From Prevotella sp. (GTDB lineage: Bacteria; Bacteroidota; Bacteroidia; Bacteroidales; Bacteroidaceae), in assembly GCA_017476785.1 (NCBI GenBank), contig JAFUZD010000111.1:1-33192 (forward strand): 33,192 bases of DNA, written 5' to 3'. The translations under genes were made by a program, and so were the position numbers. Positions 12,182-25,430 of the stretch are shown here, in pieces. The stretch's first letter is position 1; the number at the start of each line of letters is the position of its first letter. Below the pieces are notes generated by a model. The model saw nothing but the letters and a program-made list of their open reading frames with translations. It ran no database searches and was not told where the DNA came from.

Positions 12182-14209
12182 TTAGGCGTAGCTGTGCATT
12201 CCGCCGAGGAAGTAGTTGACGCCGAAATAGGTCATCAGTACGGTGAGGAAAGCCAGCACCAGATAGAGGTGATACCACACGGGGCGGCGCAGGAAAGCCA
12301 AACTCTGGTGGTGGAAGGGGACGGCATAGATGAGCAGCGTGATGAGCGCCCACACCTCTTTGGGGTCCCAGCTCCAGTATTTGCCCCACGACACGTTGGC
12401 CCAGACGGCACCGAGGAAGATGCCTACGGCCAGCAGGAACACGGCGGGATAGAGCATCAGGCGCGACAGCAGCGTGAGTTGGGCAATCTGTTGCCCGTCG
12501 TCGGTGGCCGTCCGGTGGCGGGCGATGAGAATCAGGGCGTAGATGCCGTTGAGCACCATAAAGGCCAACAATGCGTAGGCCATCATTATCACCGACACGT
12601 GGGTGGAGAGCAGCGGCGACTGGAGCACGGGCATCAGCGGCGTAATCTGCGGATTCATCTCGCCCAGAAAGGCCACCAGCAGCGTGAAGCCCGACAGCAG
12701 GAAGCCGAAAGGCAGCAGATAGGCAAAGCGGCGGTGCATCAGCAGCGTGATGAACATAATAGACAGGGCGAGAAACTGCATCGTCTCATAGCCGTTGCTG
12801 AGCGGAATGCGCCCACTGATGTACCAGCGCAGCAGATAGCTGAAAAGCAGCGTGGCAAACGAGGCCAGCAGAATGAGCGACGACAGCCGCCCCACCGTCT
12901 TGTAACGGCGGGTAATACCCGTCACCAGCAGGATGAATGTCAGCAGTCCGAAGGTGAGGTTGACCATAAAGAGCACTTTGGCAAACGGCACATTATTATA
13001 TAGAATCTCGCCGCTGATACGTGTCTCGGAGGGCAGTTCCACATTCTCGGCCGGTCGGATGAGCGTTCCGTTGGTGAGCATCAGGATGATGCCCACTTTC
13101 TCGTCCAGCTCGCGGATGGCTTTGGTCTCGCTGCCCTGTTGCTCAATGAGTGCCTGCAGCTTATACTGCTGCGAGGCGTCGAAGAGGTCGGCCAGTCGGG
13201 CATATTGCCCCTCGATGCCCAGCTGCCGGCGCAGGGTGGCATCCTTAATCTTGAGCATCGGCTCGTTCTTCCATACGTCGGGCCGCTGCAGCCATCCGTA
13301 GAGCACCTGTTCGGCCGACAGCCCCTTATAGCTGGGGCGGCCGTAGAGCTTCTGGGTGAAGTCGTGGGCCAGTGTGCTCAGCGGTGCCACCCGGTCATTG
13401 TAGACGATGGGCATCCGTGCCATCTTGTCGGCTTTCTCCTTATTGATGGTCGGAATACTGCGTGCCGTTGCCGGTGATGCACTGGTTACGGCGAGCAGTA
13501 TGGCCAGCGCTCCGTTGCGCAGCAGCGGATGGCGCAGCAGCGTGCGGAACTCTTCCTTCTTGCTCAGCAGCACCAGCAGCATCGAGATGCCCAGCAGTGC
13601 ATAGCCGAAGTAGGTGAGGGGAGTGCCCCACGGGTCGTAGGCCACCGTGAGGATGGTGCCCCGGCGGTCGGGGTCGAATGAGGATTGATAGAAGCGGTAG
13701 CCTCGATAGGTGAAGATGTTGTTCATCGAGATGGTTGCCGTTCCCGTCTGCCGGTCGGTGCCGGCATAGCTGATGTAGCTGACGAAATCCTGCGGTGCTT
13801 CGGTGCCCGGGTAGTAGACGACGCGGAAGCTGTCGAGCACCAGCCGGTCAAAGGGCAGCTCTTCGATGGCTTGCGCGTCTTTCGTGACATACTCGTTGGC
13901 AGGCAGTCCCTCGCGCAGGTGCAAGATGCCCTCGTTGGAAGTGATGAAGCTGGTGGCTGCTCCGGCCAGAATGACGACAAACGACAGGTGGAGCAGGCAG
14001 ACGGAGGTGCGCCGCCACAGCCGGTTGTGGGCAATGATGACGACGGAAAGCAGGGCCAGCAGTGCCCAGAGGGCAAAGAACCACCACGTGTGGTAGATGT
14101 GGGCAGATACAAAAAGAGGGCCTCTGGCCTGCTCTACGAAGGTAGCGAAGCCCAGAAGCCCAATGATACCGATGAGGGTAATAAGGAATAAAGTCTTGAT
14201 TAGTTTCAT
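12182..14209 (-). CDS. CcsBA-type cytochrome c synthase (ResB-CcsA fusion)
   Basis: A 675-residue polytopic membrane protein that should carry haem across the inner membrane and attach it to CXXCH motifs of apocytochromes (System II). The N-terminal ResB/CcsB-like half has several membrane segments within residues 1-110 and another near 215, followed by a large periplasmic domain (about 250-430). The C-terminal CcsA-like half has many membrane segments and the haem-handling tryptophan-rich motif WGKYWSWDPKEVW (about 605-618). Conserved-type histidines are in STHVSVIMMAYALL and YAVPFHHQ. It is the last gene of the operon, 9 bp after the Rid-family gene. Two upstream operon genes encode the haem c proteins it would mature. 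Confidence 0.92.
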   Translation of the reverse strand: MKLIKTLFLITLIGIIGLLGFATFVEQARGPLFVSAHIYHTWWFFALWALLALLSVVIIAHNRLWRRTSVCLLHLSFVVILAGAATSFITSNEGILHLREGLPANEYVTKDAQAIEELPFDRLVLDSFRVVYYPGTEAPQDFVSYISYAGTDRQTGTATISMNNIFTYRGYRFYQSSFDPDRRGTILTVAYDPWGTPLTYFGYALLGISMLLVLLSKKEEFRTLLRHPLLRNGALAILLAVTSASPATARSIPTINKEKADKMARMPIVYNDRVAPLSTLAHDFTQKLYGRPSYKGLSAEQVLYGWLQRPDVWKNEPMLKIKDATLRRQLGIEGQYARLADLFDASQQYKLQALIEQQGSETKAIRELDEKVGIILMLTNGTLIRPAENVELPSETRISGEILYNNVPFAKVLFMVNLTFGLLTFILLVTGITRRYKTVGRLSSLILLASFATLLFSYLLRWYISGRIPLSNGYETMQFLALSIMFITLLMHRRFAYLLPFGFLLSGFTLLVAFLGEMNPQITPLMPVLQSPLLSTHVSVIMMAYALLAFMVLNGIYALILIARHRTATDDGQQIAQLTLLSRLMLYPAVFLLAVGIFLGAVWANVSWGKYWSWDPKEVWALITLLIYAVPFHHQSLAFLRRPVWYHLYLVLAFLTVLMTYFGVNYFLGGMHSYA

Positions 14210-14218
14210 TGTGTCGGT

Positions 14219-15370
14219 TTAGAAGGCAGCGAATTGCGGATGGTCCACCGGCCGCACTGCCATACACTCCATCTCGATGAGCCAGCCCGGCCGGCATACG
14301 GGGGCGTGGACGATGACGTAAGGCTTGCCGGCGAAGCGCTCCTCGTACATCTCGCGCACCACTTCATAGTCGGCCGTGTCGCGTAGATAGACTATCATCT
14401 GAGCCACGTCGTCGTAGGTGCAGTCAGCTTCATTCAGCAGTGCTTCCACGTTCTCCCACATCCGGTGGGTCTGCTTGACGATGTCTTTCGGATACATCAC
14501 TTCGCCTTTGTTGTTGATGCTGGCCGTGCCAGAGATAATCACGTGGCGGCGGTCCTGATAGTCGACGCGCGTGCCGCGCTCAAAGCTGACGCCATAGTCG
14601 CTCGTCCGGTTCAGATGGGTGGGCGCATAGAGATGCTTCACCTGCTCGCTCTGGATGCCGGCAATGGCATAGTTGTCCATCTGCGACAGCACGTTGGGGT
14701 CGGCCTGTCGGCCGCCGATGCCCGTGCTGGCAATGAAGTGGGTCTTCTGCGTAAGGCCCTGCGTGAAGAACACTTGGTTGCGCGCACGCACCACACCGCC
14801 GTAGTTGAGGTCGACGTCGTTGACGAAGAACCACGTGCGGATGCAGTTGTCGGCCAGCTTGCAGCCTTCTTCCGTGAGTTGCAGCACGTATTCGTTGAGC
14901 AACAGGCGGGTCTGGTATTCCGAGTTGGCGGCCAGATTGTGTGCGCTTCCGTTCCATAGGTGGCGGTAGGCACTGTGCTTCACTTCGAAGAGTCCGCTGG
15001 GAGTGACACGCGTCTGTATGCCAGTCATCAGGTAAGCCCACAATGCCACTTTCGTACCGTCGAGTGGTGCCTGCTGTATCACTGACAATGCGCAGTCGCA
15101 ACTCTCGGCCGACAGGGCATAGATGTCGTCGGCCTGATTGCTGGCATCGCTGAGGAAATAACGCTTGAAGACAGTCTCTGCGCCTTTCAGCTGGTTGGCC
15201 CTCAGTTCGCCATAGGCATTGACGACGGCCTCGAGCTGCTGCGCAAAGGGGAGTTTCGGGGCAGTCACGTGAATCATTACGTGATACTCTTTCACTTCCG
15301 TGCCGTTGTCAAAGCAGAACACTTCGGCACGTGTCTTTTCCGTTTGGATAATCATTTGTCTTTTGTCCAT
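14219..15370 (-). CDS. large Rid-family (YjgF-like) protein
   Basis: A 383-residue cytoplasmic protein with no signal peptide. The C-terminal part (about 250-375) is a Rid/YjgF domain with RRHVIISGTASINNKGEVMY, TRMWENVEALL-type helix and AQMIVYLRDTADYEVVREMY, ending with the typical VCRPGWLIEMECMA segment. The N-terminal half also looks Rid-like but has diverged. Two-domain Rid proteins include the chorismatases FkbO and Hyg5, so a chorismate- or enamine-type hydrolase is possible; I cannot assign the substrate. Why it lies between a cytochrome lipoprotein gene (13 bp gap) and a cytochrome synthase gene (9 bp gap) is unclear. Confidence 0.8.
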   Translation of the reverse strand: MDKRQMIIQTEKTRAEVFCFDNGTEVKEYHVMIHVTAPKLPFAQQLEAVVNAYGELRANQLKGAETVFKRYFLSDASNQADDIYALSAESCDCALSVIQQAPLDGTKVALWAYLMTGIQTRVTPSGLFEVKHSAYRHLWNGSAHNLAANSEYQTRLLLNEYVLQLTEEGCKLADNCIRTWFFVNDVDLNYGGVVRARNQVFFTQGLTQKTHFIASTGIGGRQADPNVLSQMDNYAIAGIQSEQVKHLYAPTHLNRTSDYGVSFERGTRVDYQDRRHVIISGTASINNKGEVMYPKDIVKQTHRMWENVEALLNEADCTYDDVAQMIVYLRDTADYEVVREMYEERFAGKPYVIVHAPVCRPGWLIEMECMAVRPVDHPQFAAF

Positions 15371-15383
15371 ATATTTCGTGAGT

Positions 15384-16106
15384 CTAATCTTCGTTAGCGC
15401 CGTTGTCTATCCACCGGTCAATCAGTGGCAGAATGCTTTGGGCGTTCTTCTCTGACACGAGGTCGAGATGATACTCGCGCCATCCGCTGCTGAGTTCCGT
15501 GTTGAGCACTAAGTGGAGTACGCTGTTTTCAGCGTCTCCCGGTGCAACCAGCAGCTTGTCATCGACTTTGGTCGACGGCACCCCCACCAGTGCTGCATAG
15601 CTCTTACCCTCCGTCAGGTTCAGCCCAGCAGCAGTGAAGTTGGACGCGCCGTGGCAGTTAATGCAGGTGGTGTTGAAGTAACTCTGCTGGATGGCATTGT
15701 ACATTCCCACGTTCATCGTGCCGGCAATATTGATGCGAATGGTGTCGCGCACGCCTTCGACTTCGGCCTCTTGGAGCGTCAGCACGTGGCGGCGCAGGCG
15801 GTCGAGCACACAGAGCTGCACGCTGGTCACCTCGTCGGGGATGTTTTCGAGCGCCATACTCACCTTCCCCGATTCGTCGGCCATTATGGCACGCGAGACC
15901 GTTGCATAGTCGTCGCCCTCGGTGAAACCGGCAATAGCGACCGTGTATCCAGCCGCCCAGCTGCCGAGTCCCGTGACATTTCCTTCCACCTTAGCGACAC
16001 GCCCTTCGGAGGTGAAGACCACTTCCTTATAGATGCGGCCATCGTCGCACGATGACAGGCCGATAGCTACAAGCGCAATGAGAGATGCAAAGATAATCCT
16101 TTTCAT
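15384..16106 (-). CDS. monohaem c-type cytochrome lipoprotein
   Basis: A 240-residue lipoprotein. The signal peptide ends in the lipobox LSSC, with lipidated Cys20, followed by DDG. I chose ATG 16106 because the upstream in-frame ATG (16139) would put 11 extra residues before a clean signal peptide and overlap the previous gene. Residues 30-130 resemble a beta-sandwich carrying redox-unrelated sequence. A single haem-binding motif CINCH lies at 148-152, and the C-terminal ILPLIDRWIDNGANED resembles the closing helix of small cytochrome c domains. It is probably an electron carrier in the periplasm or outer membrane, matured by the CcsBA protein of the same operon. Confidence 0.85.
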   Translation of the reverse strand: MKRIIFASLIALVAIGLSSCDDGRIYKEVVFTSEGRVAKVEGNVTGLGSWAAGYTVAIAGFTEGDDYATVSRAIMADESGKVSMALENIPDEVTSVQLCVLDRLRRHVLTLQEAEVEGVRDTIRINIAGTMNVGMYNAIQQSYFNTTCINCHGASNFTAAGLNLTEGKSYAALVGVPSTKVDDKLLVAPGDAENSVLHLVLNTELSSGWREYHLDLVSEKNAQSILPLIDRWIDNGANED

Positions 16107-16128
16107 TGAATTGAGCAAATAATTTCGG

Positions 16129-17403
16129 TTAGAAAGCATATTGCAGCATCACCATAGCCGTGTGGGTAGAGATGCCAAGGTCGTCGAGATCACGGTCGAG
16201 CTGCGTGTCGTGACCCGTGCGGCCAATGTACTGATACATTGCCGACAGCTTGATGTTGGTCTTCGGCACAAAGTAGTTGACCACGGCAGCCGGCATATTG
16301 AGGAATCCGTCTTTCGACGAGCCGTTGCGGTCCATCAGGTCGTAGCGTGCACCAATCTGCCACTGCGGTGCAACGAAATAGCCCACTTGGGCGTAGCCAC
16401 CCCAATAGTTGTACGACTCGTCAATCTTCTGTCGCTTGGTAAAGCCCACGTTCATATAGTAGGCCTCGGCAGCCACGTACCATTTGTTCTTGAGCATAGC
16501 AAACTCGAAGCCTGCACGGAAGTCGTTGGTCGACTCGTTTTCCGATTCCACGTTGTAGTTGACGCTGACGCCAAAGAGCATCTTGTCGATGTGCTGCATC
16601 TTCGGGTTGCCCTGTGTCATCGGCATTGCCCCCTTAGGCTGGTAGGTGAAGCGGCCGGCATAGAGCAGCGAGGGGATGTGCTTGTCGTCGCTCAGTGTCT
16701 TGGTGGCACTGTTGACAGCCGAGCCGGTTCCGTTGAAGATACCGATTTCGTAGCCGAACTTGTTTTTCAGCATACCGTGCATCTCGACGCCGAGGTCAAA
16801 GCCCGTTCCGATGTTGGGTGTAACGGCGTTGAGCGAGTGGGGCATAATGGCAACGGCAGTCAGCGATGTGGGCAGCGAGGGAAACAGCGTTTCGCCCAGT
16901 GTGGTCAGGTATGCGTGGGTGTAGGGCGTCTTGAACTTACCGGCGCGGAAGCGGACCTCGGGGCTCACTGCATAGTCAATCCACGCCTGCTGCAGCACGT
17001 TGCCGCCAGATGCGGCAGCATTGATGCTCACGTTGTAGTCAATCTTCCCGAAAGCCTTTCCCGTAAAGCCAATGATGGCGTAGGGCATTGCAAAGCCGGA
17101 GTTGGCTACGTTGTCCTGATTATAGGCCTTATCCAAGCCCTCGTCGTCATAGTAGCGGAAGTTGAACGTGCTCTGGATGTACATATAGGGCTTGAAGACA
17201 AAGTCACCGTCCTTTGACTGCAGGGTGAAGCCGCGGTCGTCGGCAATGGGGACGACGCCATTGTCCATATTCATACGTGTCAGTTCGTCTTGCTCGACGG
17301 GTGAGCCGTTGGCTTCGTCGTCGGTCGTCGTGTCGGCATAGGCTCCGAGCGACATCATTGCTGCGCACAGCAGTGCGAGTGTTTTCTCTGAAAAGATTTT
17401 CAT
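16129..17403 (-). CDS. OprO/OprP-like outer-membrane porin
   Basis: A 424-residue outer-membrane beta-barrel protein of the phosphate-selective porin O/P type. A signal peptide of about 24 residues ends AYADT. The rest alternates aromatic beta strands (FVFKPYMYIQSTFNFRYYDD, IDYNVSINAAASGG, VRFRAGKFKTPYTH, WQIGARYDLMDRNG) and ends with LQYAF, the terminal aromatic signal for barrel assembly. Substrate specificity cannot be read from the sequence. It lies 36 bp after the di-haem gene and 22 bp before the cytochrome gene, so it is part of the operon. Confidence 0.88.
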   Translation of the reverse strand: MKIFSEKTLALLCAAMMSLGAYADTTTDDEANGSPVEQDELTRMNMDNGVVPIADDRGFTLQSKDGDFVFKPYMYIQSTFNFRYYDDEGLDKAYNQDNVANSGFAMPYAIIGFTGKAFGKIDYNVSINAAASGGNVLQQAWIDYAVSPEVRFRAGKFKTPYTHAYLTTLGETLFPSLPTSLTAVAIMPHSLNAVTPNIGTGFDLGVEMHGMLKNKFGYEIGIFNGTGSAVNSATKTLSDDKHIPSLLYAGRFTYQPKGAMPMTQGNPKMQHIDKMLFGVSVNYNVESENESTNDFRAGFEFAMLKNKWYVAAEAYYMNVGFTKRQKIDESYNYWGGYAQVGYFVAPQWQIGARYDLMDRNGSSKDGFLNMPAAVVNYFVPKTNIKLSAMYQYIGRTGHDTQLDRDLDDLGISTHTAMVMLQYAF

Positions 17404-17439
17404 TGTTATGTTTTGTTTTTCGTTTTTATTCGATTCGTT

Positions 17440-18894
17440 TTATAGTGACCACAGGAACTGAATCAGCTGATTGCGCTCCTGCTTTGACATATTGCGGAAA
17501 ACGTTCTTCGACGCTTCGCCCTCGCCGCCGTGCCACATAATGGCCTCGACGAAGTTGCGGGCTCGCCCGTCGTGCAGGAAATAGGTATGGCCGTTCACCT
17601 TCTTCTGCAGTCCGATGCCCCAGAGTGGGGTGGTGCGCCACTCATTGCCGCGCGCCAGACCGCTGACGAAGTTGTCGTTCAGCCCGACGCCCATAATCTC
17701 TGAGCCCATATCGTGCAGCAGGTAGTCGGAGTAGGGGTGGATGGTCTGTCCGCCCAGCCACGGCAGATTGGTACCTGCCAGCAGTGTCGTTCCGCGTGCT
17801 TTGGTGTGGAGCGTGGTGACGTGGCACAGGTGGCATCCGGCCTGATAGAACAGCTTCTCGCCAGCAATCACGTCGGGGTCGTTGACATTGCGGCGTGCGG
17901 GTACGGCCAGCGACTGCATATAGAGGTCAACATTTTCCATATCGGCTGTCGAAACGTCGAGTTGCGCATACGAGAGTCCCATCATAGAGCCTTCTTCCAT
18001 CTGCATCTGTCCTTCACAGATTTCTTCTGGATAGCGGCTGTTGGTCATACCCATATCGCTGGAGAAACCCAGCTCCACGGTCAGGTCGGCGTGATGTGCC
18101 TTATTGCCCGAGAGGCCCAGCTGTAGCTTGCCGCGTTCGGTAATGTAGTTGCATCGGCCACTGATGCCCCACTCGGGATAGTTGCTCTGGCGGGCCAGTG
18201 CCTCAATCTCGTTGGGGTCGAGTGCCATCATCTGTCCCATACCTACGTGGCGCAGCGGAACACGTACGGTGCAGAACAGGTCTTCGGGGTCAATCTCGTC
18301 GGCATACCATTCCGTAACCGTCCATTTAGGTACGCAGAGCGTGTACTTCTCTCCGTCGGGGAACGCATAGGTGGCAGAGTCGATCTTTACTTTCAGTTTG
18401 CCCTCGGGGCGTACTCCATAGATGGCTTGGTCGTGGATGACGCGGCCGTAGTTGGGGATGAAAGTACCGTTCTTGCGGGTAATGTAAATCAGTGACGAAG
18501 TGAAACCGTAAGGTCCCGAGCCGTCGTCGCTCTCATTCTTGAAGTTGGTCCAGTAGGTGGGCTCCGTACGTCCGGCATTGCGGTGGCAGCTGCCGCACGA
18601 ATAGCCGGCGTAGACCGGGCCGAGTCCGCCTCCCACGCCGTTCTCGTTCGAGCTCTTTACGTTGTCGTACAGGCGGTCGCCGGTATTGAAGCGTGCATTG
18701 TATTCTCCCGACAGCCAGCGCGCTCCTTGGTCGTAAGCCACGGACGAGTTGTAGAAGCCTGTGGCAGTCCCGGCAGAGAGTGCGTAGCCCGATGGGATGT
18801 TGATGTCGTCCACGTCCAATTGGTCATCGTCACTGCACGCTGCCATTGTGAAGAATCCTGCTGCAAATAGTGTGTATTTCAGGAGTTTATTCAT
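17440..18894 (-). CDS. di-haem oxidoreductase lipoprotein (DHOR family)
   Basis: A 484-residue lipoprotein with two covalent haem c motifs, CGSCH (100-104) and CHLCH (354-358), the layout of the DHOR family (once annotated as thiol oxidoreductase, COG3488). Further conserved segments are LGPVYAGYSCGSCHRNAGR and YFLHDGRARNFVEAIMWHGG near the C-terminus. The lipobox MAAC gives lipidated Cys20, followed by SDDD. This matches the surface-export signal described for Bacteroides lipoproteins, so it may face the cell exterior. The reaction is unproven; peroxide reduction or electron transfer linked to metal uptake are options. DHOR genes often neighbour imelysin genes, as here. Confidence 0.9.
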   Translation of the reverse strand: MNKLLKYTLFAAGFFTMAACSDDDQLDVDDINIPSGYALSAGTATGFYNSSVAYDQGARWLSGEYNARFNTGDRLYDNVKSSNENGVGGGLGPVYAGYSCGSCHRNAGRTEPTYWTNFKNESDDGSGPYGFTSSLIYITRKNGTFIPNYGRVIHDQAIYGVRPEGKLKVKIDSATYAFPDGEKYTLCVPKWTVTEWYADEIDPEDLFCTVRVPLRHVGMGQMMALDPNEIEALARQSNYPEWGISGRCNYITERGKLQLGLSGNKAHHADLTVELGFSSDMGMTNSRYPEEICEGQMQMEEGSMMGLSYAQLDVSTADMENVDLYMQSLAVPARRNVNDPDVIAGEKLFYQAGCHLCHVTTLHTKARGTTLLAGTNLPWLGGQTIHPYSDYLLHDMGSEIMGVGLNDNFVSGLARGNEWRTTPLWGIGLQKKVNGHTYFLHDGRARNFVEAIMWHGGEGEASKNVFRNMSKQERNQLIQFLWSL

Positions 18895-18940
18895 TCTTTC
18901 CGTGTGTTATTTTTATGTTCCTTCTCTTTTTACCACAATA

Positions 18941-18971
18941 GCGAAGACAGAATGAAGCATTCCGTCTCCGC
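18941..18971 (-). promoter_or_regulatory. intercistronic RNA hairpin between imelysin and di-haem genes
   Basis: On the - strand transcript, two 13-nt arms (18971-18959 and 18953-18941) pair fully, including two G-U pairs, around a 5-nt loop. On the + strand the same two positions would be A-C mismatches, so the structure belongs to the operon mRNA. No U-run follows, so it suits mRNA stabilisation, processing or partial attenuation better than full termination. Confidence 0.6.
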
Positions 18972-19002
18972 TTTGTGTTAAGAGTAAATAGAAGTCCTTA
19001 CC

Positions 19003-20175
19003 TTATTTTACTTTGCGGGGCTGACCGTCTTTGAAGATGAAGAACTCCAGCGTGTGGAAGCCGCGGAGGCTCTGTGCATCCTCAATGTCTTGGTCGCTGT
19101 CGCCCTCTTTCCAAGTCAGTTCGCTGAAGTCACCGCTCTTGAGAATCTGGGCAATCTGTGCCTGATCCAGAGGCCAGCTATCCATATTCGGGTCAAGACC
19201 CAACTCGTCTACCGGACCAAACAGGAAGGCCTCGCTCGACTCCCACGGCTGACGTGCAGCCAGCCAAGCATTGGCACAAGCCGTGAATGCAGCATCGGAA
19301 GGATTAGCCTTGAATGCATTGACAGCAACGTCGAGTGCAGCATTGCGCTCAGCAAGCAGCTTGTAGGTGGGCAGCACCACAGCATCAACGTACTGGGTAA
19401 CCACGGGCGAAAGCGTTGCTTCGTCAATGTCGCTGAATGCAGGCTTCAGCTCGTTCTCAATGAAATCGCCCAGATCAGCGCAGGCATCCATTGCGGCAAC
19501 GGTAGCTGAGGTATTGATGTTGTTGCGGAACGGCTGCTGGATGGCCCAGATGGCATCGGCAGCTGCCTTAATCTTGGCCTTAGCAGTAGCGTCGAGCTCG
19601 GGATTCACCTTTGCCAATACGGCAGACAGCGAGTTGGCGTCAACAACGTCGTAGTTGCTCTTGTCCTCGTCATAGATGTTGCCATAGTACGAGTTGCGAA
19701 TAGAATAGATGTTGTTGCGATAGTCTTCGCGCGAATGCCAGCTGTACCACGACTCTACGGCATAGAGGGCTTCGGTGGTCTTACCGTCAACATACAGGCG
19801 GTAGGGCTCGCCAATCTTCTGGTCGCCTACTTCGCCAGCGATATCAATACATCCGTCGAGAATCTGCTCCACGCACGAAAGTGCTGAGGGATATTCGTCG
19901 CTGTTGTGTGTCTTGAAAAGGGTTGCATAGCCACCCGTCCAAGCGTCGTAGAGCGACTGGGCATCCTGCTTCAGCAGGTTCGATACCACGGCCATATAGT
20001 TGCCCCACTGTGCAGCATACGTATCGTTGTAATCAAGGTCAGCAGCCTTCTCGGGGTCAATCGTGTCAACTCCCCCTGCAGGCTTCTCGTTCTCGTCGTC
20101 GCCGCAGGCTGCCACTCCAAATGAGAGTGTGCAAGCAGCAGCAAATAGCATAGCGTACTTAAAAATCTTCTTCAT
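19003..20175 (-). CDS. imelysin-family lipoprotein (putative iron uptake)
   Basis: A 390-residue imelysin-like (M75 family) lipoprotein with lipobox VAAC, lipidated Cys24, and acidic residues GDDE right after it. The helical body contains WLAARQPWESSEAFLFGPVD and SWPLDQAQI, and the signature GxHxxE is at residues 372-377 (GFHTLE), a probable metal site. Structures of imelysin-like proteins from gut Bacteroides have been linked to iron uptake; peptidase activity is doubtful. It lies 48 bp after the first porin gene and is followed by the di-haem gene, a pairing also seen in other phyla. Iron handling is the best-supported role, though not proven here. Confidence 0.92.
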   Translation of the reverse strand: MKKIFKYAMLFAAACTLSFGVAACGDDENEKPAGGVDTIDPEKAADLDYNDTYAAQWGNYMAVVSNLLKQDAQSLYDAWTGGYATLFKTHNSDEYPSALSCVEQILDGCIDIAGEVGDQKIGEPYRLYVDGKTTEALYAVESWYSWHSREDYRNNIYSIRNSYYGNIYDEDKSNYDVVDANSLSAVLAKVNPELDATAKAKIKAAADAIWAIQQPFRNNINTSATVAAMDACADLGDFIENELKPAFSDIDEATLSPVVTQYVDAVVLPTYKLLAERNAALDVAVNAFKANPSDAAFTACANAWLAARQPWESSEAFLFGPVDELGLDPNMDSWPLDQAQIAQILKSGDFSELTWKEGDSDQDIEDAQSLRGFHTLEFFIFKDGQPRKVK

Positions 20176-20223
20176 TTTTTTCTTTACTTTTATGTTTAAC
20201 TTATTTTTATTGATTTCTGTTTC

Positions 20224-21606
20224 CTATTTCTTGGCGAACCAGAGCTGGTAAGCTACTCCGATACGGAATTCGTTCTCGCTGTTATAGTCGCTGGTGCCAA
20301 AGATTTTGTTCGTTCCTATCTGTCGGGTAGTGAAGTCGGCTTTGACAACCAATGCGGGAATCGGTCGCCAGTTCAGTCCGAAGCTCCACATACTGACTTG
20401 ACAGCGCTTGTCAGCCACCAGTCCGGTCTCGCATTCCTCTTGCGGGTTGTAGTAGTTGTAATGAGCAAAAGGATAGACTACCGGGAATCCTTTGACGCTT
20501 GGGAAGAAGGCTTTCAGGTTGACTCCTGCCTCAACGCTCCAGTCAACGGCGCGCTTGGCTACCGGCCCCATACGGCTGTAAGGGGACTTGCTGGAGTAGC
20601 GGCGGTTGGCTGCCGTGATGCCTACTGTCTCGCTGATGTTGCCAGAGAAGTAGTTGGCGCGGGCTGTCACATACTTGTTGATGTATTGTGCGTCGAACGA
20701 GTAGAGCAATACATTGATTTTGCCCAGTTCGCTGTAAGTCATCAGTTTGTCGGCATTCTTTCCGGCATTAGGGTTGTAGAGCAGTGAGGCACCGACGCGC
20801 AGTCCCGGTACACCCGTCCAGTTCAGACGGACGGTATAGGCGGGAGCGGAGAAGTTGTCGGTCTCCAGAAATCCCTGCTTGCCCTTCTTTATCCAGTGGT
20901 ACACATCGAATCCGTTGGGATTCAGACCCGAGGTAATCATTGCCTCATAGTCGAATGAAGCCAGCCCGCTTCCGAATTCGCCAAAGAACTCAATACCCGT
21001 TTCGTGCCACGTAGAGGCCATCAGCGTGGTGGCACCCTCGGGGCGGGCTGCAGTAAAGAAGTTGAGTGGCTCGTGATGCGAGTTGGTCAGTCCAACGGGG
21101 ATAATCATATGGCCTACGCGGACGTTGAACTCCGGGATAATCAGGCGTGTAATGTGGAACTGCTCCAGTGCCACTTCGCCGCCTTTCTCCACCTCAGTCT
21201 CGTATTCGCCGTTTTCGCTTCCTGACTGTGACTCAATCTCGTAGGTCGTTCCCGTACCGCCAGACTCAAATTCAATCTCTGCACCGAGAATCCATTTCGG
21301 TGTAATCTTGTATTCGCCTTCGAGGATAAAGCGCGGTATGGATATCTCGTTATGGTTTCTCTTTGTGTTTCCTGCGCTGGCACCGTAGAAACGGTTCAGT
21401 CCGTAGTCCTTAAACGTAGCCAGCATCTCACCATAGCTGCCGATACGCCATTTGGAATATCCGTCAGCGGGAGCAGGTGCCTCGGCCTGTACGTCCTCTG
21501 TGCCGGTCGTACCGGCAGACAGGTTATTGTCGTCGGGCTCAGCTGCCAGCGCGATGCTCGTGCTCAGCAGAAGTCCCGTAGCTATCAGTGATAAAGTCTT
21601 ATTCAT
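20224..21606 (-). CDS. outer-membrane porin-like beta-barrel protein
   Basis: A 460-residue outer-membrane protein and first gene of the redox operon. I chose ATG 21606 because it gives a clean signal peptide ending ALAAEP; the in-frame ATG further upstream (21645) lies in the promoter. The barrel has alternating strands such as WRIGSYGEMLATFKDYG, KWILGAEIEFESGG, FNVRVGHMIIPVGLTNSHHE and LVVKADFTTRQIG, and ends YQLWFAKK. Gly, Glu and Thr-rich loops follow residue 110. It is similar in style to porins of Bacteroidetes but the substrate is unknown. A promoter and a perfect palindrome lie immediately upstream. Confidence 0.85.
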   Translation of the reverse strand: MNKTLSLIATGLLLSTSIALAAEPDDNNLSAGTTGTEDVQAEAPAPADGYSKWRIGSYGEMLATFKDYGLNRFYGASAGNTKRNHNEISIPRFILEGEYKITPKWILGAEIEFESGGTGTTYEIESQSGSENGEYETEVEKGGEVALEQFHITRLIIPEFNVRVGHMIIPVGLTNSHHEPLNFFTAARPEGATTLMASTWHETGIEFFGEFGSGLASFDYEAMITSGLNPNGFDVYHWIKKGKQGFLETDNFSAPAYTVRLNWTGVPGLRVGASLLYNPNAGKNADKLMTYSELGKINVLLYSFDAQYINKYVTARANYFSGNISETVGITAANRRYSSKSPYSRMGPVAKRAVDWSVEAGVNLKAFFPSVKGFPVVYPFAHYNYYNPQEECETGLVADKRCQVSMWSFGLNWRPIPALVVKADFTTRQIGTNKIFGTSDYNSENEFRIGVAYQLWFAKK

Positions 21607-21613
21607 ATATCTT

Positions 21614-21642: not shown

Positions 21643-21673
21643 CAAAGGTATTGCGTTTAGTAGTATCTCACAA
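21643..21673 (-). promoter_or_regulatory. promoter of the porin-imelysin-cytochrome operon
   Basis: On the - strand, TTG (21673-21671) and TACCTTTG (21650-21643) are 20 bp apart, a good Bacteroidetes promoter. The predicted leader is about 30 nt. Confidence 0.75.
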
Positions 21674-21704
21674 TACCTAAAAATTATGAAATTAGTGAAA
21701 AATA

Positions 21705-21735
21705 TTGCTTGTTTCGTTTAAAATAACTACTTTTG
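21705..21735 (+). promoter_or_regulatory. promoter of the di-iron LuxR regulator gene
   Basis: TTG (21705-21707) and TACTTTTG (21728-21735) are 20 bp apart. The start codon follows 44 bp later. This promoter and that of the divergent operon lie within about 90 bp, so one regulator could control both. Confidence 0.7.
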
Positions 21736-21779: not shown

Positions 21780-22739
21780 ATGAAACATCAGAAAATGTAT
21801 GAAGCGGACGACAAGATGATTTCGCTCATCAAAGATGACTATAGTCTGCTGCAGTCGTTGGGTTCCTTCGGCATCAATCTCGGCTTCGGCGACAAGACCG
21901 TGCGCGAGACGTGCGAGGACAACAACGTCGATACGCATACGTTTTTGGCCGTGGTCAACTTTACCATCAACGGCTATACGGTATTCGAAGATGACGATGA
22001 GCTGTCGGTGCCCACGTTGCTGCACTATCTGCGCGCCAGCCACGAATACTATCTCGACTTCCAACTGCCCTTTATCCGCCGCGAGTTGCAGGAGTCTATT
22101 GACGATACTGACAGCCTCGGCATCCTCATAATGAAGTTCTATGACGAATATGCACAGGAGATTCGTCGCCATATGAAATATGAGGAGAAGACGCTCTTCC
22201 CCTATGTAGAGGCACTGCTCGACGGGCAGGCACAGGGCGACTATAACATCGAGACTTTCTCTAAGCATCACGGCCAGACGGACAAGAAGCTGCGCGAGCT
22301 GAAGCTGATGATTATCAAGTATCTGCCTGCCGACTCGCACCGCAACAACAAGCTGACGGCTACGCTCTACGACATCTACAACAATGAGGAGTGGCTGCGC
22401 CAGCACGCCTTAGTGGAGGACAAAATCTTTGTGCCGGCCATCCGACGGCTGGAGCGCGTGCAGAAGCAGAGCGACGTGACGAAGAATATATCGACAATGG
22501 TGTTCAAGAACGGCAGCGACAGCAGCGAGATGCTGTCCGACCGTGAGCGCGATGTCATCATCAGTGTGGTACAGGGGATGTCGAATAAGGAGATTGCCGA
22601 CCATCTCTGCATCTCCATCAACACCGTCATCACCCACCGCCGCAACATCGCCCGTAAGCTGCAGATCCATTCTCCTGCCGGCCTCACTATCTATGCCATC
22701 GTCAACGGCCTCGTGGACATATCGGCTGTGAAGCTGTAG
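21780..22739 (+). CDS. RIC/YtfE-like haemerythrin domain fused to a LuxR DNA-binding domain
   Basis: A 319-residue cytoplasmic protein with three parts. Residues 5-60 resemble the ScdA/YtfE N-terminal domain (SLGSFGINLGFGDKTVRE), but the Cys pair usual there is absent. Residues 75-230 form a haemerythrin-like four-helix bundle. Its ligands His88, His131, Glu135, His163 or His164, His209 and Glu213 have nearly the spacing of the E. coli YtfE di-iron ligands (84, 129, 133, 160, 204, 208). Residues 250-319 are a LuxR/GerE helix-turn-helix: LSDRERDVIISVVQGMSNKE, then SINTVITHRRNIARKL. A di-iron centre tied to DNA binding suggests a sensor of O2, NO or iron. It is divergent from the imelysin/cytochrome operon, its likely target. 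Confidence 0.85.
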   Translation: MKHQKMYEADDKMISLIKDDYSLLQSLGSFGINLGFGDKTVRETCEDNNVDTHTFLAVVNFTINGYTVFEDDDELSVPTLLHYLRASHEYYLDFQLPFIRRELQESIDDTDSLGILIMKFYDEYAQEIRRHMKYEEKTLFPYVEALLDGQAQGDYNIETFSKHHGQTDKKLRELKLMIIKYLPADSHRNNKLTATLYDIYNNEEWLRQHALVEDKIFVPAIRRLERVQKQSDVTKNISTMVFKNGSDSSEMLSDRERDVIISVVQGMSNKEIADHLCISINTVITHRRNIARKLQIHSPAGLTIYAIVNGLVDISAVKL

Positions 22740-22869: not shown

Positions 22870-23580
22870 TTATTTTATGGCCTTTCCCGATTCCCACGCC
22901 TGTCCCACACTGTCACCTACTACGCGGTAGTTGTGCGTTGACGAATCGTAGATGACGGGCTGCAGTTTGGCCAAATCTACCTTTCCGTCGGTAAGGATGC
23001 GCTGATTGGCACTCATATTCACGATTTCGCCTACTACGCGGGCACCACCGTTCTCATTCTCGTCGAATGTGACTACCCGGCACTCCAGCGTCAATGGATA
23101 TTCGTTGATGATGGGGGCGTCTACGTTCGGGCTCTTAGTGACGGTGAAGCCTGCGCGAGCCACTTTGTCGGGCACGTCGTTGGCAGACACCAGTCCGAAG
23201 TAATCGCTCTGTACTACATTGTCCTTCGAGGCGAAGCTGATGGTGAAAGCCTGCTTCAGCTTGATGTTCGAGGTGGTCTTGTGGGCTGAGAGATTGACGC
23301 AGATGTGGTTCGGACCGCACTGGCCGCCCCACGCTGCCATCATTACGTCGGGATTCTCGTTCTCATCGTAGGTGGCAATCATAATGGCAGGCAGCGGCGT
23401 GATGATGCCCTTAGCACCGAAGTTCTCGCGTCCTTCTACATTCTGAACCTGCTCCTTCTCAGGATTCACGTTTGCTTCTGCGGCAGGTTTCTCACTCTTG
23501 TTTCCGCAAGCGCCCAATACGAGCGCAACAGCCACGGCTGCGCAAGCAAGTCCGAGGCCTCTTTTGTTCATTGTCTTCAT
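22870..23580 (-). CDS. flavin-reductase-like lipoprotein (FMN-binding split barrel)
   Basis: A 236-residue protein. Residues 53-230 match the flavin reductase family common in Bacteroides, with ITPLPAIMIATYDENENPDV, AAWGGQC, NLSAHKTTSNIKL and DYFGLVSANDVPDK, and a family-like ending on LQPVIYDSSTHNYRVVGDSV. Cytosolic relatives start near the barrel. Here an extra N-terminus provides a signal peptide with lipobox LGAC (lipidated Cys25) and a spacer rich in Glu and Ala. It therefore appears exported and membrane-anchored, which is unusual for an NAD(P)H-linked family. It may be a flavin-binding redox protein of the envelope. ATG 23580 or 23571 could be the start. No -7 element is visible in the 88 bp upstream, so it may be read through from the LuxR gene. 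Confidence 0.85.
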   Translation of the reverse strand: MKTMNKRGLGLACAAVAVALVLGACGNKSEKPAAEANVNPEKEQVQNVEGRENFGAKGIITPLPAIMIATYDENENPDVMMAAWGGQCGPNHICVNLSAHKTTSNIKLKQAFTISFASKDNVVQSDYFGLVSANDVPDKVARAGFTVTKSPNVDAPIINEYPLTLECRVVTFDENENGGARVVGEIVNMSANQRILTDGKVDLAKLQPVIYDSSTHNYRVVGDSVGQAWESGKAIK

Positions 23581-23668: not shown

Positions 23669-24265
23669 TTAAATCTTGTTGATGTCTACATAGCCGTGCA
23701 TCACAGCATAGATGGTCAGCGCCGACACACTCTTCACACCCAGCTTGTCCATAATGTTCTTGCGGTGGGTGATGACGGTAGCAATGCCGATGTTGAGGCG
23801 GTCGGCAATCTCTTTGTTGATGAGCCCCTGCACGATGAGCGACATTACCTCTATCTCGCGATCGGTGAGAATCTTCCGTTGCAGTACGTCGGGCATCGGG
23901 GGCAGATTGCGTCCGTGAGCGTGGGCGTGCTGCTCCAGTGTGAGGATGGCACGGATGAGTTGCTGCTCCGGTTGGTTGATGCAGAGGCTATGAAACTCTG
24001 ACAGTTGTGACGTTTCGCCCAGCGACAGGGTCAGCACGATGGTCTTGCGCTGGCGCTCGCTGAAAAACGCACGGTTGCGCAGCAGGATGTCCATCGACAC
24101 AAAGTAATGGACATAGCTGTCGGAGTTGTTGGCTTCCAACTCGGCCAGTGTGCCAAACGTGTCGATAGTCATTATCGGCATCACGTTCTGCAGCAGGTTC
24201 TTCAATCCCAATGCGGCAAGCGTATTGGCATCGATGATGGCTATTTTAGGGCGGGACGATGGCAT
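23669..24265 (-). CDS. LuxR-type regulator with degenerate receiver domain
   Basis: A 198-residue transcription regulator. Residues 5-110 look like a response-regulator receiver domain (KIAIIDANTLAALGLKNLL). Asp12 and a possible phospho-acceptor Asp59 are present, but the usual conserved Lys is missing (INQPEQQ), so phosphorylation is doubtful. The linker holds HAHAH (113-117), a possible metal site. Residues 130-198 are a LuxR helix-turn-helix closely resembling the one in the di-iron regulator nearby, sharing TVITHR, LTIYA and VDI. I chose ATG 24265: an earlier in-frame ATG (24319) adds 18 residues inside oadB. It lies 7 bp after oadB, so it may share its transcript. Confidence 0.88.
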   Translation of the reverse strand: MPSSRPKIAIIDANTLAALGLKNLLQNVMPIMTIDTFGTLAELEANNSDSYVHYFVSMDILLRNRAFFSERQRKTIVLTLSLGETSQLSEFHSLCINQPEQQLIRAILTLEQHAHAHGRNLPPMPDVLQRKILTDREIEVMSLIVQGLINKEIADRLNIGIATVITHRKNIMDKLGVKSVSALTIYAVMHGYVDINKI

Positions 24266-24272
24266 ATTGATA

Positions 24273-25430
24273 TTATGATAAGAATCCGAGCAGTGCACCG
24301 GCAGCCACAGCCGAACCAATGACGCCAGCCACGTTGGGACCCATAGCGTGCATCAGCAGGAAGTTACGGCGGTCGTACTCCAGTCCGAGGTTATTGGATA
24401 TGCGGGCAGCCATCGGTACGGCACTGACGCCTGCATTTCCGATGAGTGGGTTCAGTTTCTTGTCTTTTGGCAGGAAGAGGTTCATCAGTTTCACGAAGAG
24501 TACACCGCTCATTGAGGCCACAACGAATGCCAGTGCACCGATGGCGAAGATGAAGATGGTGTTCATCGTGAGGAACTCGCTGGCCTGCGTAGAGCAGCCT
24601 ACGGTGAGGCCGAGCAACATCACAACAATGTCGTTCAGCGCACTGCCTGCTGTCTTGGCCAGTCGGGTGGTCTTGCCGCTTTCTTTCAGCAGATTGCCGA
24701 AGAAGAGCATACCGAGCAGGGGCAGACCGGAAGGCACGATGAAAGTAGTGAGCAGCAGTCCGATGATGGGGAAGAGGATGCGCTCCGTCTGGCTCACTTG
24801 GCGGGCAGGTTTCATCCGAATGACGCGCTCTTTTTCCGTGGTGAGCAGTCGCATCAGCGGCGGCTGGATCAGAGGCACCAGTGCCATATACGAGTAGGCG
24901 CACACAGCGATGGCTCCCATCAAGTTGGGGCTCAGCTTGGAGCTGAGGAAGATGGCTGTGGGGCCGTCGGCACCGCCGATAATGGCAATGCCTGCAGCTT
25001 GGTTGGGCTCAAATCCGAGTGCCAGCGCAAACATATAGGCTCCGAAGATGCCGAATTGTGCTGCTGCACCGATGAGTACCAGCTTAGGATTGGCAATGAG
25101 CGCCGAGAAATCGGTCATTGCGCCGATGCCGAGGAAGACGAGTGGGGGATACCACCCGAGCCGCACGCCCTGATAGAAGATGTTGAGCACCGAGTTGTCC
25201 TCGTAGAGGCCAATCTCCAGTCCGGCGTCAGCCCGGAAGGGAATGTTGCCGAGAATGATGCCCAGCCCGATAGGGACGAGCAGCAGCGGTTCGAAGTCTT
25301 TCTTGATAGCCAGATAGATGAACAGTGCACCCACGACAATCATAATGAGGTTTCCTGCCGTGGCATTGGCAAAGCCAGTATAGGTCAGGAATTCATTGAA
25401 GTTTTCTGCTATGAAGTTGATAAATCCCAT
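24273..25430 (-). CDS. oadB: sodium-translocating decarboxylase, beta subunit
   Basis: A 385-residue polytopic membrane protein of the OadB/GcdB/MmdB family. This subunit decarboxylates carboxybiotin and uses the energy to pump Na+ out. About nine to ten membrane segments are visible. Family motifs include PLVFLGIGAMTDFSALIANP, AIIGGADGPTAIF (Na+ and biotin-handling region), the repeat-like GNAGVSAVPMAAR and MHAMGPNVAGVIGSAVAAG. With the biotin carrier and OadG genes upstream it forms the membrane part of a methylmalonyl-CoA or oxaloacetate decarboxylase. The nearby methylmalonyl-CoA mutase genes favour methylmalonyl-CoA. Confidence 0.95.
   Translation of the reverse strand: MGFINFIAENFNEFLTYTGFANATAGNLIMIVVGALFIYLAIKKDFEPLLLVPIGLGIILGNIPFRADAGLEIGLYEDNSVLNIFYQGVRLGWYPPLVFLGIGAMTDFSALIANPKLVLIGAAAQFGIFGAYMFALALGFEPNQAAGIAIIGGADGPTAIFLSSKLSPNLMGAIAVCAYSYMALVPLIQPPLMRLLTTEKERVIRMKPARQVSQTERILFPIIGLLLTTFIVPSGLPLLGMLFFGNLLKESGKTTRLAKTAGSALNDIVVMLLGLTVGCSTQASEFLTMNTIFIFAIGALAFVVASMSGVLFVKLMNLFLPKDKKLNPLIGNAGVSAVPMAARISNNLGLEYDRRNFLLMHAMGPNVAGVIGSAVAAGALLGFLS

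Follow-up and report, generated by a model that had tools for sequence, protein, structure and literature searches.

What does a protein sense in which a hemerythrin domain is joined to a LuxR-type DNA-binding domain, and which genes does it control? The question is raised by an intact open reading frame (ORF) of 319 amino acids (aa) at 21780..22739 on the plus strand of a contig from Prevotella sp. The whole stretch analysed, 33,192 nt long, is called the window here, and the genome is 89% complete. A first-pass annotation had read the gene as a di-iron domain of the RIC/YtfE kind fused to a helix-turn-helix (HTH), possibly a sensor of gas or iron. We consider it probable that the protein is a one-component activator of an iron-starvation regulon, i.e. 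a fused, receiver-less form of the hemerythrin/CdhR module that reads the occupancy of a di-iron site.

Relatives of this protein have been described. In P. gingivalis the operon PG1236-PG1237 encodes a hemerythrin and a DNA-binding regulator, CdhR, and is reported to rise about 7-fold in low iron; BT_0519-BT_0520 of B. thetaiotaomicron is an operon of the same type with a 16-20-fold rise, and P. intermedia encodes both parts in a single fused protein, PIN17_RS10465 (PMC10434189, 2023). The same report states that CdhR regulates hmuYR, that its iron binding is yet to be shown, and that little is known of how Bacteroidetes adjust gene expression to iron (PMC10434189). The first-pass annotation knew of no characterised regulator of this architecture. 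This was half right: in its split form the regulator corresponds to the CdhR module of the literature, and a fused form has been reported from P. intermedia (PMC10434189). In the open-licence literature no paper on YtfE with an HTH was on point by its title. The module and the P. intermedia fusion are thus already known; additions of the present analysis are the partner survey, the repeated fusion, the operator, whose letters are unsearched in the literature, and the predicted regulon.

Pfam placed a Hemerythrin domain at aa 80-221 (55.2 bits, cut-off 25.3) and a GerE/LuxR domain at aa 251-306 (60.4 bits, cut-off 23.5), which bore out the annotated C-terminal LuxR HTH; Response_reg did not match the fusion protein. 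On the plus strand the hemerythrin/RIC-like domain with H88, H131, E135, H164, H209 and E213 occupies 22017..22442 and the HTH 22530..22697, the latter with 46-70% identity to the HTHs of CdhR-type partners. Profile alignment to ScdA outlined a degenerate ScdA_N-like region of the RIC type at 21807..21974 (+) with approximate bounds. The Pfam ScdA_N profile itself did not match the window protein and matched 3 of 40 family members at E≤0.1. The fusion is the sole PF01814 match in its 89% complete genome. Against the RIC equivalog TIGR03652 it scored 55.5 bits with a cut-off of 204.7; by this curated rule it is RIC-like, not RIC. A repair protein of the pure RIC kind was set aside, since the score is far below the cut-off, a cysteine pair is lost (see below) and an HTH is attached. 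An AlphaFold model of the whole fusion (mean pLDDT 83) had YtfE as its top structural match with LuxR-type regulators interleaved below, no match reaching E≤0.001. With a model of aa 1-222 (pLDDT 77) each of the top 12 PDB matches was either YtfE of E. coli or ScdA of S. aureus, at E-values of 4.8e-4 to 0.08, and the thirteenth had an E-value of 0.7. These matches support the annotated RIC-like fold, albeit with weak E-values.

The metal ligands were examined in a family profile. H131/E135, H164 and H209/E213 shared their columns with the ligands of ScdA and YtfE. The first His was one residue off. The annotated spacing of the YtfE ligands therefore held column for column for five of the six and was shifted for one. 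H88, H131, E135, H209 and E213 were unvarying in 100 fused and 10 split sequences. The annotation had left the third His between positions 163 and 164; it is H164, present in 97/100 fused and 10/10 split sequences, as H163 varies. A wider set of 60 split and 27 fused proteins had all six ligands in 60/60 of the former, and in the latter five in 27/27 and H164 in 23/27. When the window protein was aligned with 39 split ones (40 sequences in all), the invariant positions were G35, C45, L84, H88, Y124, H131, E135, H164, H209 and E213, six of the ten being predicted ligands. Conservation and model point to a hemerythrin bundle with a di-iron site of four His and two Glu, the metal being putative, and we infer that this domain of the fusion binds iron. 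The N-terminal Cys pair of RIC is missing as annotated; it aligned by profile to G35-F36. One other cysteine, C45, was invariant in 110/110 sequences (100 fused, 10 split).

The hemerythrin and the HTH belong together beyond the fusion. A search of the order covered 393 genomes and gave matches in 300 at E≤1e-10, with HTH-only matches counted too. Three sets of loci were drawn: 80 Prevotella-group loci with the fusion (L032-L111), 60 loci with a stand-alone hemerythrin taken down the E-value list to about 4e-33, and 20 loci outside the Prevotella-group set selected as fused. The stand-alone homologues, of about 230 aa, adjoin a same-strand LuxR gene of the cdhR type (about 200 aa) in 59 of 60 cases, at -145 to +90 bp and in 13 pairs with a 4-bp overlap; the partner lies downstream in 57 loci and upstream in two. 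The sole exception is L156, a contig of 7.3 kb without a LuxR partner. Compared with the partner HTHs of 10 split loci, the HTH of the fusion showed 54-70% identity (above 55% in eight), and 54% with LuxN, a LuxR protein encoded nearby; the split partners were 36-50% identical to LuxN. These values suggest an HTH of the CdhR kind and not that of another LuxR regulator. The window protein is a hemerythrin protein coupled to a LuxR-type regulator and in this respect belongs to the hemerythrin/CdhR module. In L130 the two genes stand in the same frame a few bases apart, and the search lists a frame of 442 aa with one internal stop.

The split partner carries one part more than the fusion. Its N-terminal 120 aa or so have a receiver fold by profile and aligned along full-length VraR. 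This receiver is degenerate: Pfam Response_reg matched only 9/39 partners at E≤0.1, and the phospho-Asp column holds Asn in 29/39 and Asp in 4/39. The fused proteins of the 20 loci span 296-358 aa and leave no room for a receiver. That the fusion lacks it suggests that the receiver is dispensable once a hemerythrin domain is tethered to the HTH.

The survey of the fusion called for in the annotation rejected a single fused clade. On the tree, built from 87 hemerythrin domains, seven changes are required to account for the fused state, at least five of them forced by starred branches. Holding all fused rows as one clade cost 102 log-likelihood units (approximately unbiased (AU) test, p 2.4e-49). 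The fusion appears to have arisen several times; the exact number of origins is unsure because some rows, e.g. the fused L182 and L190, are long-branched. The tree is unrooted; we infer a split ancestor because the degenerate receiver is shared. A chance or assembly artefact was set aside, as the fusion recurs in L032-L111, isolates included, and in several clades. By discarding the degenerate receiver more than once evolution has in effect run an experiment, whose outcome suggests that the hemerythrin part can take the receiver's place as input.

Which DNA does the module recognise? The aligned upstream regions of the Prevotella-group fusions share a strongly conserved block. It is an inverted repeat, AATACCTA-N4-TAGGTATT, a full palindrome of 20 bp. 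A matrix was trained on 78 of the 80 Prevotella-group loci plus the window, L054 and L107 being left out as too near a contig end, and found sites in 73/79 upstream regions of its own training set. The same matrix, trained on the Prevotella group only, was then applied to the split loci at 14 bits. It gave 23 matches (21/59 loci) in 21.9 kb at hemerythrin starts and eight in the remaining 987 kb. The reversed matrix gave 1 vs. 2 matches near and far, ten permuted matrices 0-1 vs. 1-6. The operator marks the own promoters of both the fusion and the split CdhR forms. We regard operator and regulon as well-supported predictions and consider it likely that the HTH of the fusion binds the operator. 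Around the split loci L151, L153, L161, L163 and L164 a CCC-rich or related inverted repeat lies about 1.3-1.5 kb past the hemerythrin start, roughly the expected end of the cdhR-type gene.

The operator has a fixed register to the promoter. Promoters were called by the Bacteroidetes consensus. In 36/38 pattern matches in Prevotella-group loci the -7 box TAnnTTTG stood exactly 20 bp past the terminal TTG of the operator; thus this TTG would be the -33 box. Among 113 site-strand matches elsewhere 36 had the -7 box at 20 bp to the right and 21 at 21 bp to the left, while other distances occurred once or twice; these make 45 in-register promoters, or 43 without two duplicate sites. This placement would be that of an activator touching RNA polymerase. 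In the window the predicted operator AATACCTAAAAATTATGAAA lies at 21672..21691 with a weak right half and one mismatch to the scan pattern (palindrome, strand not applicable). The predicted promoter of the divergent operon (21643..21673, minus strand) has its -33 TTG at 21673-21671, overlapping the operator, then N20 and the -7 box TACCTTTG at 21650-21643. The predicted promoter of the fusion gene (21705..21735, plus strand) consists of TTG at 21705-21707, N20 and TACTTTTG at 21728-21735.

The predicted regulon was surveyed in genomes of increasing distance. The composite of operator and promoter with ≤2 mismatches was found in 57/60 same-genus genomes, the reversed control yielding one match in all 60. 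The pattern with ≤1 mismatch occurred in 39/61 same-family genomes with 126 matches vs. 15 for the reversed control (hand-summed); 55 of these 61 match the fusion protein at E≤1e-20, one of them, G413, by the HTH alone. Across the order the strict pattern was present in 11/149 genomes. One scan for candidate sites gave 15 matches vs. 8 in the reversed control. For the site survey 85 loci were used, 45 returned by genome scans and 40 chosen from listed positions before the genes were seen. They held 90 sites, 88 of them distinct (duplicates L236/L272 and L242/L251), of which 75 were intergenic by the ORF filter.

Genes downstream of the sites were assessed with 96 of 101 ORFs within 300 bp, one duplicate and four others being omitted. 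Among the first 25 of 80 families were TonB plug (13), hemerythrin (12), FeoAB (5), flavodoxin (4), TetR (4), enolase (3), cation efflux (3), PepSY_TM (2) and AhpC (2). The operator also precedes imelysin genes, including the divergent operon of this genome. Several of these target classes recur in the low-iron gene lists of PMC10434189. In the genome of the window feoAB (one strong FeoB match) and a TonB receptor have sites in exact register with two and one operator mismatches, respectively. TonB-receptor sites on contig C87 (L195/L204) are out of promoter register and were counted as weak, and several other candidate sites lie inside ORFs or before genes without evident iron link. Composite sites from 24 other same-genus genomes were followed, one each, and nine lead into the fusion gene; these were 24 of 29 loci, five being unrecognised by the script. 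The enolase sites (L235, L257, L280) have no obvious iron link. At G000:C17:22745-22845 (L302, L304) two divergent operator-plus-promoter matches with two and three mismatches stand a few bases apart. No ORF of 80 aa was found there within 300 bp on the strand tested, and a short gene or RNA may start at these sites.

The fusion gene was annotated as divergent from a haem/iron operon, and this was confirmed. On the minus strand follow a porin-like protein (20224..21609), which has no Pfam match and is porin-like by reading of its sequence, an imelysin (Peptidase_M75, 19003..20175, 191.5 bits), a di-haem oxidoreductase (DHOR, 17440..18894, 212.8 bits), a Porin_O_P protein (Pfam, 16129..17403) and, further down, a ResB/CcsA-like cytochrome c assembly protein (12182..14209). 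Imelysin operons with EfeB/DUF1111 peroxidases have been implicated in iron uptake (PMC3143127). Homologues in the 80 Prevotella-group loci numbered 56 for the porin-like protein, 56 for imelysin, 52 for DHOR and six for Porin_O_P, the first three being mostly divergent from the fusion as in the window. The operon exists in two main versions, one 70-87% identical to that of the window (L068, L079, L084, L099) and one 24-42%; L033 and L037 lie in between. The regulators beside both versions are all 77-83% identical. With diverged operons next to such similar regulators the link of regulator and operon therefore seems to outlast replacement of the operon. The two porin-imelysin-DHOR versions (L032-L111 vs. 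window 12182-21609) look as if replaced in place. The other 80 loci had a porin within 7 kb in 12 cases, an imelysin in seven and DHOR in seven, about half of these fused. Imelysin made up 5/77 of the second-upstream genes there; the nearest upstream genes (n=77) were FeoAB in three cases and flavodoxin in two, most others being unrelated.

Two more genes of the window stand near the fusion. A protein with a flavin-reductase domain and, by reading, a lipoprotein-like N-terminus (22870-23580, minus strand) is encoded between both LuxR genes and might act in reducing ferric iron outside the cytoplasm. LuxN (23669-24277, minus strand) is another LuxR protein of the CdhR-like kind; its receiver seems to be degenerate, and its recognition-helix residues, TVITHR, are those of the fusion. 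LuxN is a separate paralogue. Homologues lie near the fusion in 22/80 Prevotella-group loci, and most of the 61 same-family genomes have long matches.

Could the operator belong to Fur or to LuxN, with the fusion being merely one target? The genome has two FUR-family genes, Fur is the textbook iron regulator, and the TVITHR residues of LuxN are identical to those of the fusion. G446 and G426 have sites and LuxN without a hemerythrin match. Yet the repeat is unlike the canonical Fur box, which was set aside as the motif on this ground alone. PgFur is reported not to bind the E. coli box (PMC6613475). LuxN as owner was set aside because the sites do not go along with it: they are missing from nine genomes that have a long LuxN match (G393, G400, G402, G403, G408, G415, G427, G439, G447), and G405 (77% complete), in which no long match to LuxN was found, has three sites, one between hemerythrin and flavodoxin genes. 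By genome type, sites were present in 23/25 genomes with a stand-alone hemerythrin, 4/7 with the Prevotella-type fusion, 9/21 with another fusion, 1/2 unclear ones (G413, G434) and 2/6 without a hemerythrin match (hand count). Furthermore, the motif is associated with HTH residue 284, which corresponds to NarL K188: this residue is Ile in 27/29 strong-motif loci, and the motif occurs in 27/53 loci with Ile vs. 2/26 without. We therefore regard ownership by Fur or LuxN as improbable, although the association with residue 284, which speaks against it, is not significant on the tree.

For the mode of action we propose the following. A dimer of LuxR domains would bind the 20-bp inverted repeat, which borders on the -33 box, takes it in and keeps a constant spacing to the -7 box. 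The bound regulator would recruit RNA polymerase to iron-uptake promoters, here those of the divergent porin-imelysin-DHOR operon, of feoAB and of a TonB receptor among others, and in many relatives to its own promoter. The RIC-like domain without repair cysteines would hold a di-iron centre; the filled centre would keep the HTH inactive, and loss of iron (or oxidation) would release it. That the fusion activates transcription is suggested by the operator placement, by the published induction and by the reported control of hmuYR by CdhR. Iron occupancy would be the signal because of the predicted targets and the conserved ligands. The gene context, like the predicted regulon, speaks for iron status rather than a gas as the signal.

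A rather unlikely alternative is a sensor of O2, NO or redox state, where an always filled di-iron site switches the HTH upon ligand binding or oxidation and iron genes are targeted since oxidative or nitrosative damage demands iron. RIC relatives answer NO and oxidative stress, the invariant Cys45 could be redox active and AhpC/TSA accounts for 2/96 genes after operator sites. Bhr-DGC of Vibrio is a reported O2-regulated hemerythrin (PMC10101095). However, the predicted targets fall most often into four classes, namely TonB receptors, the regulator itself, FeoAB and flavodoxin, and the published stimulus of the homologous operons is iron depletion (PMC10434189). We give very little credit to the idea that the hemerythrin domain senses nothing but is an iron store or donor or a dimerisation unit, so that the expression level alone sets activity as with SsoR, a response regulator that acts by dose. 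The regulator's own gene often has sites upstream, which fits positive autoregulation, and Shewanella has a dose-dependent, phosphorylation-independent regulator of iron genes (PMC12442407). But a structural role alone would not demand that the ligands make up six of ten invariant columns in 40 sequences, nor that five of six persist in all 27 fused proteins despite repeated loss of the receiver.

Several observations weigh against the activator of an iron-starvation regulon that we prefer. At 14 bits 38/59 split loci had no operator match, and of 14 fused loci from clades other than the Prevotella group 3 had the operator even at the loosest cut; several of these other fused lineages lack it. 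The promoter of the fusion in the window has no clear in-register operator, unlike that of many relatives. With tree-based pairing the association of residue 284 with the motif was not significant (median p 0.25), and G446, which has no hemerythrin match in an assembly of 320 contigs, has four one-mismatch sites. The structure matches are weak by E-value, the best being the 4.8e-4 given above. Finally, H164 is replaced by Arg in L174, L176 and L177, which form one clade, and by Asp in L190. Because of these four fused proteins not every relative need have a complete metal site. Their site is either altered or dead; L190 retains a strong operator upstream.

Taken together, operator, fixed register, predicted regulon and six named ligands make the putative iron sensor of a dominant gut phylum directly testable in laboratory strains of commensals. 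As a tentative extension, which may well prove too broad, the RIC-like domain could serve a large part of the Bacteroidales as its iron sensor. It would be a positive switch, independent of Fur and driven by di-iron occupancy, with a conserved iron-starvation regulon read through AATACCTA-N4-TAGGTATT operators merged with the -33 box and a dispensable receiver deleted several times to give one protein.

How does the fusion compare with known systems? By its published description PIN17_RS10465 is very likely its orthologue. PG1236-PG1237 and BT_0519-BT_0520, as described, differ in consisting of two proteins. The split loci sampled here differ from the fusion by the N-terminal degenerate receiver of about 120 aa in the regulator, which the fusion lacks. 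One of them, L112, has flavodoxin and DUF2023 genes upstream of the hemerythrin-LuxR pair like BT_0516-0517 near BT_0519-0520 (PMC10434189). RIC, YtfE and ScdA resemble the fusion in the predicted fold and in five of six ligands column for column, but the fusion lacks the Cys-Cys pair, falls below the TIGR03652 cut-off and carries a DNA-binding domain. With response regulators of the NarL/LuxR type such as VraR, NarL and FixJ the fusion has the HTH in common, but not the receiver domain. Bhr-DGC of Vibrio cholerae and PG_0686 of P. gingivalis use a hemerythrin as a signalling input or accessory domain as the fusion does, yet both are reported to be diguanylate cyclases and not DNA-binding proteins (PMC10101095).
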